Part shown: in pieces, positions 6,014 through 41,209 of the stretch
Position numbering within the stretch: position 1 is the first letter of the stretch
How the letters are laid out: every line of letters begins with the position of its first letter
Assembly: GCA_913061235.1 (NCBI GenBank)
Contig: CAJXTB010000001.1
Location: forward strand, 186,001 to 250,000
Length of the DNA stretch: 64,000 bases
Direction: 5' to 3'
From: an uncultured Pseudomonadota bacterium
Lineage (GTDB): Bacteria > Myxococcota_A > UBA796 > GCA-2862545
Translations under genes and position numbers: made by a program
Notes under the pieces: model-generated
What the model was told of the DNA's origin: nothing
Seen by the model: only the letters and a program-made list of their open reading frames with translations
The model's database searches: none

Positions 6014-6592
6014 TTAGCTGAACGACCAGCTGCTGCTTGGCTTGGTGTCCTGGTCGTCCTTCGCTGTGTCCTTGACCGGCTTCGCAGCACGATGGGAAGG
6101 CTCCGAAGAACGCTTGAACGGCTTCGCAGCGGGCTTCTCTGTGGTGTTCGATGGACGCTTAAACGGCTTGCCCGAGTCCATGTCGGACTTCGTTGAAGAC
6201 CTAGAGGACTTCGTTGACGGCCGAGAGGACTTCGTTGACGGCCGAGAGGACTTCGTTGAGTGCCGAGTAGGCTTCGTTGACGGCCGAGAAGATGTCGTGG
6301 CGGGCTTCGCAGACTTGTTGCGAACACCCGGCTTGGAGATGATTTCCACGTAGACCGTAGGGTCTCCGGCGTCGAAGACCGCTTCAATCAGATTGGTCAC
6401 CTCTGAGATGTGAACGTCTGTGGCGGTCTCCTCAGTCTCCCCGACCTTGCAGGAAAAGTCCCAAAAATCCACACCCTCAGGCAGTGGTTTCCGACGTTCG
6501 CGCTTGACATACTTGCGGACCCGGTTCTTCAGTGCAGCAAGTGCCTGCGGTGGCTTGTGCGTGGATTCGGCGAACGTAAACGTCTGGCGCAT
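6014..6592 (-). CDS. DUF6172 family protein with basic repeat tail
   Basis: The first 95 residues match the small conserved family I know as DUF6172: MRQTFTF start, RKYVKRERRKPLPEG, VDFWDFSCKVG, and a C-terminal YVEIISKPG strand. Its function is not established. Here the usual ~100-residue protein is extended by about 95 residues of Lys/Ser/Arg/Pro/Thr-rich sequence containing five 7-residue units (KSSRPST type) and further basic clusters, ending WSFS. The tail resembles DNA- or RNA-binding disordered extensions. Start is ATG 6592, preceded by an AAGAGGA ribosome site; codons upstream do not continue the similarity. It may be cotranscribed with the MYXO-CTERM gene 57 bp downstream. Confidence 0.8.
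   Translation of the reverse strand: MRQTFTFAESTHKPPQALAALKNRVRKYVKRERRKPLPEGVDFWDFSCKVGETEETATDVHISEVTNLIEAVFDAGDPTVYVEIISKPGVRNKSAKPATTSSRPSTKPTRHSTKSSRPSTKSSRPSTKSSRSSTKSDMDSGKPFKRPSNTTEKPAAKPFKRSSEPSHRAAKPVKDTAKDDQDTKPSSSWSFS
6186..6290 (-). repeat. 21-bp tandem repeat, five units, in coding sequence
   Basis: The plus-strand string GACTTCGTTGA begins at 6186, 6207, 6228, 6249 and (with one change) 6270, an exact 21-bp period. The repeat encodes seven-residue KSSRPST-type units in the DUF6172 protein. The middle units are nearly identical and the outer ones degenerate, as expected for growth by slippage. The unit is a multiple of three, so copy-number change keeps the frame. Confidence 0.9.
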
Positions 6593-8225: not shown

Positions 8226-8510
8226 GCTGGGCAAAGAGCAAGCCACCCGAAGCGTACTCCCCGTACGCGAGGGCCGCACAAGGCAAAGCCAGCAAGCCCG
8301 ACTCCACGACGAAATCCGCTTCGAGAGTGCGTGCAGGACAAGGAAAGCCCGCCACAGCGTACCCGAGGGTGTAGTTGGAGTCAGAGGGCCAGAAACAAGC
8401 CCCAAATCCCCCTTCTCCGAACAACCAAATCGGCCGCGGGAGTGCGTACTAGGCAAGGAGCAAGCCCCCGAAGCGTACGTCGGTACGCGAGGGGCGCAGC
8501 AACGCAGCAT
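8226..8510. repeat. Intergenic cluster of three ~60-bp imperfect repeats
   Basis: The 377-bp gap 8155-8531 holds no convincing gene but three related segments: 8226-8290, 8325-8374 (most degenerate) and 8440-8510. Shared elements in order are GGCAA(A/G)GAGCAAGCC, CCGAAGCGTAC, a 4-5 base spacer, and GTACGCGAGGG(C/G)CGCA. The core GCGTAC...GTACGC is an inverted repeat, so each unit could form a short hairpin. Two units are preceded by the same GAGTGCGT string. This looks like a genome-dispersed palindromic repeat family inserted several times. The spacing is irregular and no leader or cas gene is present, so it is not CRISPR. Confidence 0.75.
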
Positions 8511-8531
8511 AGTGCGTGCTATCGCGGTCGA

Positions 8532-9176
8532 TCAGCCGCTCTGCCACATAAAGTAGGCAGCTTCTGGGCTTACATCATTGGGGTCCAAGAAGATGTACCC
8601 CATACCACCCGGCGTGATGTCGAAGCTCACCACATCCGTGGTGAACTGCACCGCCAAGCGCATGTTGCCGGGGCCGGTCTTGCTCTTGGGCGTATCTTCG
8701 CCCTGAAGCCACACAGCGCCACCGCCGACCTTGTCGTGCTTAATCGAGGACAGCGCCTGGGACATGGTCAACTCATTGGCCTTGACCCGACGCATCAGGG
8801 CGAGCTCATCCACAGGTTCCCCTGGGACAAGTCGCGTCCGACGATACACGCGAACGGTGGGCGGGCCGTCGTACAGCGTGTCGTCTTTCTCAGCATGCAA
8901 GAGCACCTTGTTGGCGCCCTTGTTTGGATTCCAGTCTTCACACCGCCCACCAGTGGCGTGACAGATGAAGACGCTCATCCGCTCATAGCCACCCAGATCA
9001 ACCGCGAGACCCGCGTCAATCTGCATCATGTGGCACATGGGCGCCCCACACACCGCACATCGGGGCCAAAGGTTCGCACGAATACCGCGCGGATGCCCTC
9101 CGTAGAAACCGATGTTCTCACCGCCTCCAGACCCCTTAAGGATCTGGCGAGACGTCCAGTTGGTGCGTGAAGTCAC
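8532..9176 (-). CDS. DUF1963/YwqG-like protein
   Basis: The 214-residue protein resembles the YwqG/DUF1963 family of unknown biochemical function. Family-like features are a central Cys-Ala-Val-Cys...Met-Met-Gln-Ile-Asp segment, a Phe-Ile-Cys-His strand, and the C-terminal GGxGYIFLDP plus a terminal Trp-containing strand. The paired cysteines (CAVC, then C and C downstream) suggest a structural metal. Translation starts at GTG 9176, three bases after the aconitase stop, with GGAG inside the aconitase 3' end, so it is almost certainly in the aconitase operon. Why it accompanies aconitase is unclear. Confidence 0.75.
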   Translation of the reverse strand: MTSRTNWTSRQILKGSGGGENIGFYGGHPRGIRANLWPRCAVCGAPMCHMMQIDAGLAVDLGGYERMSVFICHATGGRCEDWNPNKGANKVLLHAEKDDTLYDGPPTVRVYRRTRLVPGEPVDELALMRRVKANELTMSQALSSIKHDKVGGGAVWLQGEDTPKSKTGPGNMRLAVQFTTDVVSFDITPGGMGYIFLDPNDVSPEAAYFMWQSG

Positions 9177-32695: not shown

Positions 32696-33274
<579 letters not shown>

Positions 33275-36893: not shown

Positions 36894-38972
36894 GTGCCGT
36901 ACCCCATCGTAACCGAAGAGCTCGACCTACTTGGCCGTGTCTCCACCTTGCTTCAAGAAGTGCCGTACATTGTGCCGCCGAAAGAAGCGGACATCCTCAA
37001 GGACCTCGTGACGCTGCGCGAGGAGATGGCCCAGGCCAAGTCCGAGGACAAGGGCTCCCTGCTCACCCAGTACGACGCAAGCTACGCGTTGCTCAAGCAA
37101 CTCCGTTCCACACGCGAACGGCCCGACGTCGACCCGGACTCCCCATACTTTGCTCACCTGCGCCTCAACGAAGGCGGAAAGGTTCGCGACGTCTGCATTG
37201 GCAAGGCCACGCGTATCGCTCGCGGCGTTCGCGTCATCGACTGGCGAAATGCCCCGATTAGCCGGGTTTTCTACGCCTACAAAGAAGGCGAAGAGTTCGA
37301 AGAAGAGGTTGGCGACACCTACATTGAGGGTGTTGTCGAAGCACGCCGCACCATCTCCATCCGTCGCGGCAAGCTTGAACGGATTGACGCGCCACAGGGC
37401 ATCTGGATGACCGCTGGCGATGGCGAGTGGGTCGAACGCGAGCGTGAAGCACCGCAGATGGCCGGTGGTCAAGGCTCGGCAACGCGCTTCCACGACGAGA
37501 ACGCCGCCCGTGGCCGTAGCCTGGGTACCGACATGCAGAGCAACCGTCGCCGGGCGGACAAGCGTCTGCCAGACATTGCCTCGCTCATCGACCCCGAACA
37601 GTTCGAGCTCATCACCCAGCCCAGTAGTGGCTTTGTGGTCATTCGCGGTACGGCCGGCTCTGGCAAGACCACCGTCGCGCTGCACCGAATCGCCTACTTG
37701 GCGTACGAAGACCCGCTGATTAACGGCCCAGCTACGCTGTTCTTGGTGTTCAGTAAGGCGCTTCGCGACTACGTCTCCCACGTGCTTCCTGCGCTGGGTG
37801 TTCCCAAGGTCACCGTGTCGACCTTCCGCGAGTGGGCGCTACAGCTTCGTCAGCGCCACTTCCCCCGTCTGCCTCGGGAAGTCCGCGACACCACTCCCGC
37901 TGCCGTCGTCCGCCTGAAGCTTCACCCGCTCATTGGTGAGGCCCAGCAACGTCACGTAGACCGCAAAAAGGGCTCTGCCAACGGCGAACAAGCAATGGAC
38001 GACTGGATGAGCGTCCTGACCGACCCCGACCTGCTGTGGGACGTGTTCAACGACGGCGCTCCCGGAGCCTTTGACCGCGCAGAGCTCGAGAAGGCCTGTC
38101 AGTGGTGCCAAGACCGCTTTGAAGAGATGCACGCCAAGTGGGACGGCGACAAGCACGCCCCCGCCGCACTCGACCTGGAAGACGACGCCTTGCTGCTTCG
38201 CGCCTGGCAGCTCCGTGTTGGACCCTTGCGTGGCAAGGGGCGGGTACCGTTGCAGTACCGCCACGTCGCAGTCGACGAAGTGCAGGACCTCTCCCCTGTT
38301 GAAGTTCAGGTCCTCTTGGGCTGCTTGGACCGTCGCCAGTCCATCACCCTGGCCGGCGACACTCAGCAGCACGTTCAGCAAGACGGTGGCTTCACCAGCT
38401 GGTCCGACTTCTTCGCCAAGCTCGGCCTGCAAGGCACCCACGTCAACACCCTCAAGATTGCGTACCGCTCGACCCGTCCCATTGTGGAGTTCGCGGTCAA
38501 GGTGCTCGGTCCGTTCTGGGAAGACGACGCCATGCCGCTCACCACCCGTGACGGCCCGCCGGTTGAGCTGTTCCGCTTTACCGAGCACGGCGCCTGCGTG
38601 GCCTTCTTGGCCGACGCTCTCAAGGTGTTGATGAAGGAAGAGCCCATGGCATCCGTCGCGGTCCTCACCCCTTCTAAGCACCTCTCTGGCCAGTATTACA
38701 AGGGCCTCGACCGCGCCGAGCTGCCGCGACTTCGCCAGGTTCACAACCAAGACTTCGAGTTCGCACCCGGCGTTGAAGTCACGGAAGTGGCCCAAGTCAA
38801 GGGCCTGGAGTTCGACTACGTGGTGCTCGTAGAGGTCAGCGCCAACGCCTACCCAGACACACCAGAAGCGCGTCGGGTACTGCATGTTGGCGCCACACGG
38901 GCCGTCCATCAGCTGTGGGTCACCACTGTGGGAAGCCCGTCCCAGATGATTCGCGAAGACGCTGAGGTCTAG
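36894..38972 (+). CDS. HelD-like superfamily 1 helicase
   Basis: A 692-residue SF1 ATPase of the HelD type. HelD binds RNA polymerase and helps release it from stalled or non-productive complexes. Diagnostic features are the N-terminal helical arm (about 1-75), PDSPYFAHLRL, CIGKATR and VIDWRNAPISRVFY (the HelD VDWRAP hallmark), Walker A GTAGSGKTT near 252-260, the Walker B region VDEVQDLSPVE, AGDTQQ, and the late motifs VAQVKGLEFDYVVLVE and GATRAVHQLWV. The start GTG 36894 is eight bases after AGGAG (36881-36885); a GTG at 36885 overlaps that site and is unlikely. Confidence 0.88.
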   Translation: MPYPIVTEELDLLGRVSTLLQEVPYIVPPKEADILKDLVTLREEMAQAKSEDKGSLLTQYDASYALLKQLRSTRERPDVDPDSPYFAHLRLNEGGKVRDVCIGKATRIARGVRVIDWRNAPISRVFYAYKEGEEFEEEVGDTYIEGVVEARRTISIRRGKLERIDAPQGIWMTAGDGEWVEREREAPQMAGGQGSATRFHDENAARGRSLGTDMQSNRRRADKRLPDIASLIDPEQFELITQPSSGFVVIRGTAGSGKTTVALHRIAYLAYEDPLINGPATLFLVFSKALRDYVSHVLPALGVPKVTVSTFREWALQLRQRHFPRLPREVRDTTPAAVVRLKLHPLIGEAQQRHVDRKKGSANGEQAMDDWMSVLTDPDLLWDVFNDGAPGAFDRAELEKACQWCQDRFEEMHAKWDGDKHAPAALDLEDDALLLRAWQLRVGPLRGKGRVPLQYRHVAVDEVQDLSPVEVQVLLGCLDRRQSITLAGDTQQHVQQDGGFTSWSDFFAKLGLQGTHVNTLKIAYRSTRPIVEFAVKVLGPFWEDDAMPLTTRDGPPVELFRFTEHGACVAFLADALKVLMKEEPMASVAVLTPSKHLSGQYYKGLDRAELPRLRQVHNQDFEFAPGVEVTEVAQVKGLEFDYVVLVEVSANAYPDTPEARRVLHVGATRAVHQLWVTTVGSPSQMIREDAEV

Positions 38973-38976
38973 GGCC

Positions 38977-39004
38977 AAAAATCACCTTTCTCAAAAAAAG
39001 GTGA
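38977..39004 (-). terminator. Rho-independent terminator (minus strand)
   Basis: TCACCTTT (38982-38989) pairs with AAAGGTGA (38997-39004) across a 7-base loop, and the minus strand continues with five T residues (38981-38977). It ends transcripts coming from the ABC exporter side and may also weakly serve the helicase transcript. Confidence 0.8.
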
Positions 39005-39310
39005 CGATGCCCCTAAAGTGAGAGGCACGCCGGTCCGATAACCTTGGCATGGCACGGTAACCCGGGCCACACGCCGTATCCTCCGGCACTGTTCTCCCCC
39101 GAACGACTTGTCCCGGTCTCCCCATTTGTGTGGGAGGCCGGGCTTGTTCGTTGGGGCGTGATGCACGAGAGACGGTCGATCCAACGCCGAAGCCGTCGTC
39201 GCTGCGGTGGCCACGGACAGGAGTCCAGTGGCCACCTAGCTCCTAGCCCTCGACGTCGCCTCCACCGCCTCTCTATCACGCCCTGTACGGACATAGAACC
39301 CGAGGCCATC
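38977..39310 (-). ncRNA. Candidate structured RNA or long 3' UTR, family unknown
   Basis: The 352-bp gap 38973-39324 has no credible gene but several long helices. GGGCGTGAT (39154-39162) pairs with ATCACGCCC (39275-39283). Next to it 39167-39176 pairs with 39264-39273, perfect on the minus strand because one A-C plus-strand mismatch becomes G-U. Enclosed is a 9+4-bp hairpin (39206-39236; GGTGGCCAC/GTGGCCACC, then GGAC/GTCC). A further long hairpin lies at about 39096-39156, and a minus-strand terminator at 38977-39004. The RNA would be either the 3' UTR of the ABC exporter or an independent ~330-nt RNA. I see no RNase P, tmRNA, 6S or SRP signature. Confidence 0.5.
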
Positions 39311-39324
39311 CTGCTAAAGGATAG

Positions 39325-41064
39325 TTAAGCAGCGCCGAATTGCCGTTCGACGAGCTTCTTGTATAGACCGTCGGCGTCAATGAGCGCGTCATGGGTGCCT
39401 TGCTCGGCGACCTTGCCGTCCGCCAGAACAACCACACGGTCGGCGTCGCGAACGGTGGACAGGCGATGTGCAATGACCAGCGTTGTACGGCCTTCCATGA
39501 GCCGGTCGAGGGCCTCCTGGACCAAGTGCTCGCTCTCGGAGTCCAGTGCGCTGGTCGCTTCGTCCAGAACCAGGATTGCAGGGTCCTTCAACACCGCACG
39601 GGCAATCGCGATTCGCTGTTTCTGACCTCCGGATAGCCGCACGCCGCGCTCACCAACCAGGGTGTCAAAGCCTTCCGGGAAGCCATCGACAAAGTCGATA
39701 GCGTTTGCGGCGAGGGCGGCTGCACGGACTTCGTCTTGCGTGGCATCCGGCTTGCCATAGCGAATGTTCTCGGCAATCGATGCCGCGAACAAGATGGGCT
39801 CCTGGCTGACCACGCCCACGTGGTGCCGCAGAGACTTCGGATTGAGCGACGTCAGATCCCGACCATCAATGCTGATGACGCCGGAGTTCGGGTCGTAAAA
39901 GCGCGACAGCAGCGCAGCGACAGTCGACTTTCCCGAGCCCGAAGGCCCGACCAAGGCCACCACCTCGCCTGCACCCAGCGTCAGGTCCAGCCCCTGCAAC
40001 ACAGGGGCGTCTGTGCGAGTTGGATAGGCGAAGTGCACGTCAGACAGCACCACATCACCGCTGACACTCTGTAGAATCTCACCAGACTCGGTCTCCAGGT
40101 CGCTGTTTCGGTCCATCAGCTCAAACACACGCTGCGAGGCGCCGATAGCCCGCATAAAATCGCTGTACAAACCGGACAGAGCGCCTAGAGACACCGCAAT
40201 AAGTCCGGTGTAGATGAGAAACGCGGTCAGGTCGCCAACACTCATGCGGTCTTCGATGACCAGCGAGCCGCCCCACCACACCACCAGAGCAATGGTCGAG
40301 AAGCCGGCGAATCCGAGCACGCTCTGAAAGATGCCCATGGCCAAGGCTCGCCTGGCGGCCAGCTGGTACGAGGTCTCGACAGCGGCAGCGTAGCGCTCCC
40401 CTTCGGCCTCTTCTCGGGCGAAGGCCCGCACGGTGCGAACACCGGAGATGGCTTCCTCAGCGATAGAGGTCGACAAGGCCAAGGCGTCTTGCACTTTGCG
40501 CGACAGCGAGCGTAGCCAACGGCCGTACACCGCCGCACTGACTGCAATGATCGGAACCACGGCAATGGCCACGACAGTCAGGCGTGGACTCATCCACAGC
40601 AACATGATTGTGCCGCCAACAGCGCCAACAATGTAGCGCAGCGCCATGGAGACGTTCACGGTCACCGTGTTCTGAAGCACCGTGGTGTCGGACGCGAGCC
40701 GATTGGTCAGCTCACCCGTCCGGCTCATGTCGAAGAAACCAATCTCCTGCCCCAGAATCGACATGAACAGTCGGTTCCGCAGCCGAGCCACGACCCGCTC
40801 ACTGGCGACGGTGAACAACCATGCCCGGATGGCGCCAAACACCGCTTGAACGATGAACATCACGACCAAGGCCATGGCTGCGTAGTTCAGTACGGACGCG
40901 TCGCCGTCCGTAACGATGGTGTCGACGAGCCACTTGATGGCCTGCGGGTACACCAGGGACATGCCTGACGAGATGAGCAACGCCGTGGTCGCAACCGCGA
41001 GAAGGCCTGCCTCCGGTCGAGCGAGGGACAGGAGACGACGTGTAGTGCTTGGGCTTTCGGACAT
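39325..41064 (-). CDS. ABC transporter, half-size exporter (ABCB type)
   Basis: A 579-residue half-transporter with a fused membrane domain (six predicted spans, about 20-300) and ATPase domain. The latter has Walker A GPSGSGKST, the Q-loop (VVSQEPILFAASIAENI), signature LSGGQKQR, Walker B ILVLDEATSALDSE and H-loop VIAHRLSTV. Sequence style (FFDMSRTGELTNRLASDTTVLQ, HFAYPTRTDAPVLQGL) matches the ABCB10/MsbA-like homodimeric exporters, which move lipids, peptides or drugs outward; the substrate is unknown. Start is ATG 41064. The stop at 39325 is followed by the structured stretch and terminator. Confidence 0.93.
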   Translation of the reverse strand: MSESPSTTRRLLSLARPEAGLLAVATTALLISSGMSLVYPQAIKWLVDTIVTDGDASVLNYAAMALVVMFIVQAVFGAIRAWLFTVASERVVARLRNRLFMSILGQEIGFFDMSRTGELTNRLASDTTVLQNTVTVNVSMALRYIVGAVGGTIMLLWMSPRLTVVAIAVVPIIAVSAAVYGRWLRSLSRKVQDALALSTSIAEEAISGVRTVRAFAREEAEGERYAAAVETSYQLAARRALAMGIFQSVLGFAGFSTIALVVWWGGSLVIEDRMSVGDLTAFLIYTGLIAVSLGALSGLYSDFMRAIGASQRVFELMDRNSDLETESGEILQSVSGDVVLSDVHFAYPTRTDAPVLQGLDLTLGAGEVVALVGPSGSGKSTVAALLSRFYDPNSGVISIDGRDLTSLNPKSLRHHVGVVSQEPILFAASIAENIRYGKPDATQDEVRAAALAANAIDFVDGFPEGFDTLVGERGVRLSGGQKQRIAIARAVLKDPAILVLDEATSALDSESEHLVQEALDRLMEGRTTLVIAHRLSTVRDADRVVVLADGKVAEQGTHDALIDADGLYKKLVERQFGAA

Positions 41065-41209
41065 CGCGCACAACTACGCACAGCTTTGCCCGACGCAACC
41101 CAGCAACCACCAGACCGGCCGCTACGAGAGCGTCTTCACAAAACGCGGGTCATGTTGCGCCTTCGTAGTGTGGGATGTATTTCCGCGACTCACCCCTGGA
41201 TACTCCGCA

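Follow-up and report, generated by a model that had tools for sequence, protein, structure and literature searches.

Di Nocera et al. (2013, PMC3733652) described REPs that carry a CGTC tag and have no dedicated transposase; the REPs of that paper lie less than 20 bp from an ORF end. The CGTC-tagged ones include RPE-4 and RPE-6 of Rickettsia and dRS3 of Neisseria, and are found in several phyla. No dedicated transposase is known for them, and how they move has been an open question since their description (PMC3733652). The background given there also covers ERIC, NEMIS and other MITEs, which are about 70 to 300 bp long, form hairpins and are intergenic, often beside genes. Geobacter genomes, for their part, are reported to contain multicopy intergenic sequences, some of them palindromic (PMC2700814, PMC2996986).

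The locus studied here belongs to a 64-kb window (the whole stretch of DNA that was analysed), in which a first-pass annotation had proposed a single structured RNA gene of about 330 nt, with its own terminator, in an intergenic gap of 352 bp (38973-39324). We find instead that about 130 nt of this gap alone are conserved, as one copy of a dispersed hairpin repeat of 110 to 130 bases, and not as a one-off RNA gene. The features concerned are collected in Table 1.

Table 1. Features of the gap and of the repeat family within the window
Feature	Position	Strand	Basis or remark
UvrD/HelD-like (helicase-like) ORF	stop ends at 38972	+	left neighbour of the gap
Terminator-like hairpin with 5 U, weak	38977-39004	-	sequence and fold; outside the repeat
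Second hairpin	39100-39150	-	fold; single copy in the genome, outside the repeat
Repeat copy, one long hairpin (outer stem 39264-39283 with 39154-39176)	39154-39283	-	R1 146 bits, R2 86 bits
Core 3' strand (AGCGACG)	39197-39203	-	nearly invariant
Inner hairpin, 13 bp, UCCU loop, one bulged base	39206-39236	-	double changes keep pairs among copies
Core 5' strand (CTAGGAGCTAGG)	39235-39246	-	AGGAGC nearly invariant in 40 copies, several phyla
ABC-transporter ORF	39325-41073	-	right neighbour of the gap
Decayed partial copy, 5' of the second copy	8226-8289	+	R2 21 bits, E 0.0057
Second family copy	8426-8535	+	R2 95 bits, E 2.4e-22; placed by R1 at 8415-8548

The structure that had been described for the gap was borne out. 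Compared with dinucleotide shuffles, the minus strand had a minimal free energy of -185.2 kcal/mol (z -7.69, none of 100 shuffles folding as well). The plus strand also folded strongly, since the sequence is palindromic, yet less so than the minus strand (-161.2 kcal/mol, z -6.73). The long-range helix, announced as some 20 bp, has 19 pairs: ten between 39264-39273 and 39167-39176, and nine between 39275-39283 and 39154-39162, the two parts being divided by a 1x4 internal loop. Both the 13-bp hairpin inside this helix and the second long hairpin could be located, and the G.U pair predicted for the minus strand only is present at 39268/39172, where the plus strand has an A.C mismatch, a bias that holds family-wide. 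As for the U-tract terminator, the hairpin (stem 38982-38989 / 38997-39004) and the five U following it at 38981-38977 on the minus strand are real, but the signal is weak and was not called by a terminator scan. Because the stop codon of the ABC-transporter ORF lies 42 nt upstream on the same strand, this hairpin is more simply read as, probably, the 3' end of the transporter transcript. No sigma-70-type promoter was called in a scan of the gap, and no tRNA or tmRNA was found within the window. In agreement with the statement that no known RNA class was recognised, Rfam gave no family over the gathering threshold, either for the gap or for the family copies, and a permissive threshold returned chance matches only; 6S, twister-sister and skipping-rope RNAs were rejected as identities, being without an Rfam match.

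In a Blast comparison of the gap with its own genome (7.18 Mb, 72 contigs), five places other than the gap itself were matched, and all five of these matches fall in query bases 41-172, that is, window 39153-39284. Neither the flanking second hairpin nor the U-tract hairpin recurred with the repeat in this search. A covariance model made from the six own-genome copies (R1) detected about 20 copies in this genome and 24 in another genus of the same family. A wider model (R2), made from 40 copies of which a part had been picked with stem complementarity in view, detected at least 30 copies in the own genome and at least 120 in a genome of the same family, G001. The second copy present in the window abuts, by its 3' end, a minus-strand ORF at its stop codon (about 8532-8534); this codon and the centre of the core are 53 nt apart. 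The decayed copy, in which the inner hairpin GCGTACTCCCCGTACGC is still legible, lies about 200 bp before this full copy, which is itself behind the minus-strand ORF. The window also contains tandem arrays, namely a seven-copy TCGCTG hexamer (33123-33166) and a five-copy 21-bp unit (6185-6289).

When copies were aligned and compared, the centre proved constant and the arms variable. The constant centre reads CNAGGAGCNAG along its 5' strand and NAGCGACGNNG along its 3' strand (the core pair is also given as CNAGGAGCNAG / NAGCGACG), and the inner hairpin held within it often ends in GTAC-NNNN-GTAC. Judging from the letters of the core, the GA of GGAG could face the GA of CGAC as a possible tandem G.A between two asymmetric internal loops. 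The outer stem, about 25 to 45 bp long, differs in sequence from copy to copy while its complementarity is kept. A second version found in G001 has the same kind of long stem with a 3-4-nt loop in place of the inner hairpin, and often sits about 118 nt 5' of a full copy.

Covariation, which the first-pass annotation had proposed to look for, was present: pairs are kept by double changes across copies. The six own-genome copies form a single hairpin in which 17 of 49 pairs are changed on both sides in some copy. For the 40 copies, the covariation value was 0.472, compared to 0.170 for column shuffles and at most 0.172 for all slid-partner controls, and compensating cells numbered 386 versus 171 in shuffles. 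Non-canonical pairs indicated the strand. Curated copies had 153 G.T versus 53 A.C. As the presence of a stem had been a reason to retain some of the 40 copies, pairs were counted again in a set for which the core pattern was the sole criterion. The outer stems of this set had 68 G.T versus 12 A.C (p 1e-10), with more G.T in 23 copies and more A.C in 4; a second, smaller set pointed in the same direction, below significance (12 versus 4). A count made with a loose core expression and forced alignment (896 G.T and 1020 A.C over 198 sites) gave no signal, because most of these sites are not copies. The excess of G.T over A.C means that the folding strand is the AGGAGC...GCGACG strand, as RNA or as single-stranded DNA. 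No U-tract follows the repeat stem of the window copy on either strand, so that it does not qualify as an intrinsic terminator. Overall, what stands of the first reading of this gap is a structure selected on the minus strand, covarying and absent from Rfam; the lone RNA gene does not.

The family resembles the CGTC-tagged REPs in being dispersed, palindromic and mostly outside genes, and, by the description of the REPs in PMC3733652, in lying near ORF 3' ends, in occurring in several phyla and in having no dedicated transposase known. The core is also alike: short repeats that combine this core with a C/T-GTC tag, an AT stem foot and a CC tail were common in IMG/VR contigs, and AGGAGC-NNN-GCGACG is common to them and to the short-loop copies of G001. 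This likeness of the core, AGGAGC-loop-GCGACG, is judged on such short CGTC/TGTC-tagged repeats, which fit the description in that paper. The family differs from the REPs by its length (about 110-130 bp, compared to 20-40 bp) and by its freely varying stem of about 25-45 bp, whereas the REP stem is fixed at 8-9 bp with a loop of 4-5. It usually has an extended inner hairpin, its ends have no constant CGTC/TGTC/CCTC tag or CCA tail, its stem feet vary without a fixed AT, and it keeps a fixed orientation to the neighbouring stop codon. As the core is common but size, stem and tag are not, we do not count the family as a member of the CGTC-type REP kind, but file it as what appears to be a variant of that kind with a long stem. 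It shares with MITEs such as ERIC and NEMIS its size, its hairpin and an intergenic position beside genes; however, what a transposase recognises in MITEs is a pair of constant inverted repeats at the termini, whereas our family is constant in its centre and variable at its ends. The Geobacter 'multicopy nucleotide sequences' likewise form intergenic families scattered over the genome, some of them palindromic, and come from the bacterial order in which some of our copies lie, but they are not known to have been described with a structure, strand or stop-codon rule. Our Geobacterales copies may belong to them.

A scan for the core alone, with no stem required, was carried out on the genomes of 84,980 species, and 29 stretches matched. 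The carriers were Geobacter sp. OR-1, the Verrucomicrobia assembly GWF2_51_19, Acidobacteria, a Thermoanaerobaculia and a Thermoleophilia, together with several Deltaproteobacteria, a Myxococcales MAG, the 'Proteobacteria' DTSAM18 and a Bacillota MAG. Since contamination is possible in metagenome bins, single matches in a phylum are weak. With R2, at least 111 copies were found in the 1.3-Mb assembly GWF2_51_19, and at least 41, 21 and 17 in three Geobacterales. In the window's phylum, 36 of 285 genomes had an R2 match at E 1e-6. The Myxococcales record (L059) is the same, letter for letter over the element, as a locus of a same-family genome (L039), and the window's family therefore probably belongs to Myxococcota. 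The core pattern with the GTAC loop was not found in viral contigs, and a literature search for the core sequence found no publication.

About half of the copies, across phyla, start close to the point where an opposite-strand gene has its stop codon. In 29 of 59 copies the distance from such a stop codon to the core centre was 50-76 nt, compared to 3.2% of random positions. In a second set (Geobacterales, Verrucomicrobia and one Deltaproteobacterium), 26 of 46 copies had an opposite-strand stop at 45-80 nt, and 6 of 46 had a stop codon on the other side of the element. The foot of the stem lies at the stop codon, or a few bases from it, in many of these copies. As a simple long-ORF method supplied the ORF ends, single cases may err, yet the clustering itself is clear. 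An exception is the window copy at 39154-39283: no stop codon abuts its 3' side, and the HelD stop is 181 bp off. The anchor genes include those for ribosomal protein S1, a chaperonin, Hsp70, Omp85, EF-Ts, ThrRS, PurL and NAD kinase; to judge from this list, there may be a bias toward highly expressed genes.

Some copies were seen beside RNA genes. At locus L033 (1402-1498 and 1501-1633) the copy starts 3 nt behind a tRNA-Sec gene, and copies seemingly beside tRNAs were also noted at L018, L024 and L067. At L061 (4972-5346 and 5361-5408, minus strand) a copy lies on the strand of an RNase P RNA gene and overlaps the 5' edge of this gene, possibly within its P3 helix. On contig G085:C1 (L135-L145, L195-L214), most copies whose strand could be called are opposite the G-rich (leading) strand, an observation confounded by gene orientation. 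An origin on the lagging-strand template is disfavoured, since the element strand in G085 is mostly not on that template, with the same confounding.

Presence and absence could be followed at an orthologous site of the Geobacterales, between nadK (named from Pfam) and recN (identified by reading), by searching with the copy that lies behind nadK in Geobacter OR-1. This query itself had dispersed matches by the dozen, of which the better ones reached 72-87% identity. The site holds a family copy in four genomes (L090, L091, L092, L095) and is empty in L094, where about 26 nt separate the nadK stop from the next start, and in L099; in other Geobacterales it is partly deleted. Two stem positions are changed on both sides among the four filled sites, with pairing kept, which fits both selection in place and replacement by a new copy. 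TTTTTT follows the copy in L091 only, among the nadK copies examined. Several nadK-recN sites contain different long hairpins that start near the same stop codon; thus L097, L098, L101, L102 and L103 have unrelated ones (of an AT-rich TTGAATTATGAATTTTGAG type and a CGAGG type) directly behind the nadK stop, as if this spot were a general hot spot for hairpin repeats.

The reading we favour, with a probability of roughly 70%, is that 39154-39283 is a copy of a non-autonomous, mobile, REP-like hairpin repeat; its mobility and the enzyme acting in trans are what we infer from the distribution of the copies and their structure. The core CNAGGAGCNAG ... NAGCGACG, capped by the inner hairpin or by a 3-4-nt loop, sits in the middle of an outer stem whose sequence is free and whose pairing is maintained on one strand. 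That strand would fold as RNA or as single-stranded DNA, and would then be recognised and copied by an enzyme provided in trans, the copies inserting or persisting chiefly just behind stop codons. Copying that depends on folding would account for free arms with kept pairing, for amplification in some lineages and for empty sites elsewhere. It leaves the stop-codon siting and the antisense orientation unexplained, and no target-site duplication was established.

Candidates for a common mobilising enzyme were rejected in turn. The Y1/RAYT transposase (PF01797), which would make these repeats RAYT-mobilised REPs or REPINs, is absent from the own genome, and two are present in G001. Two genomes rich in copies lack reverse transcriptase. 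Copy number is not tracked by integron integrase either. The own genome encodes a full one (G000:C18:126549-127493, 445 bits to TIGR02249), and G001 also carries the enzyme, while six other carriers have none over the cut-off; 17 of 58 relatives have it, 15 besides the own genome being over the cut-off, and many of these relatives lack element matches. It was not found over the cut-off in Geobacter OR-1, nor in the Verrucomicrobia genome with at least 111 copies. None of the three enzymes, therefore, fits all carriers.

The main rival, which we consider distinctly less probable and which may be compatible with mobility, is that the hairpin serves the neighbouring gene, for instance at the mRNA 3' end, in insulation from antisense transcription or in relief of supercoiling, and that copies are kept for that. 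The siting behind stop codons across phyla and the compensating changes at the orthologous nadK copies would fit such a function in place, and this explanation also draws on the housekeeping nature of many of the anchor genes listed above, on the copies by tRNA-Sec and at the 5' edge of the RNase P RNA gene, and on the unrelated hairpins at the same nadK site of other species. It has to contend, however, with the empty nadK sites of L094 and L099 and with the many relatives without any copy. Moreover, the paired strand is antisense to the gene, so that the gene's own mRNA folds less well, and a T-tract is found behind only one nadK copy.

An independent structured RNA gene of about 330 nt with its own terminator would agree with the strong fold of the entire gap and with the U-tract hairpin, but it is very improbable: 130 nt alone recur while the remainder is single copy, no promoter was called, and copies elsewhere come without the second hairpin. 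The repeat family makes such a gene unnecessary. Also very improbable is an attC-like integron site, that is, a bottom-strand hairpin directly behind a gene, for although siting and bottom-strand folding are similar and both the own genome and G001 carry an integrase, this enzyme does not follow the element among the relatives and fails to reach the cut-off in both Geobacter OR-1 and the copy-rich Verrucomicrobia genome, the attC end motif is not apparent in the copies, and the neighbours include ordinary housekeeping genes.

Within the reading as a mobile hairpin repeat, we put forward, as a speculation that is probably wrong, that this is a widespread element folding as a single strand which, in antisense, targets highly expressed genes and tRNAs at their stop codon or 3' end, by a mechanism tied to gene 3' ends (for example, abundant RNA 3' ends). 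If true, such targeting would be a new way to place mobile hairpins, and the missing mobilisation route of the CGTC-type REPs. A covariance model now exists for a repeat family that is lacking in Rfam, and whose members would go on turning up in de novo RNA searches as supposedly new non-coding RNAs. Exceeding 100 copies in some genomes, oriented in a fixed way to stop codons, present or absent at an orthologous site and folded on a single strand, the long-stem variant is a tractable system in which to find the enzyme and to separate selfish spread from a role at gene ends.
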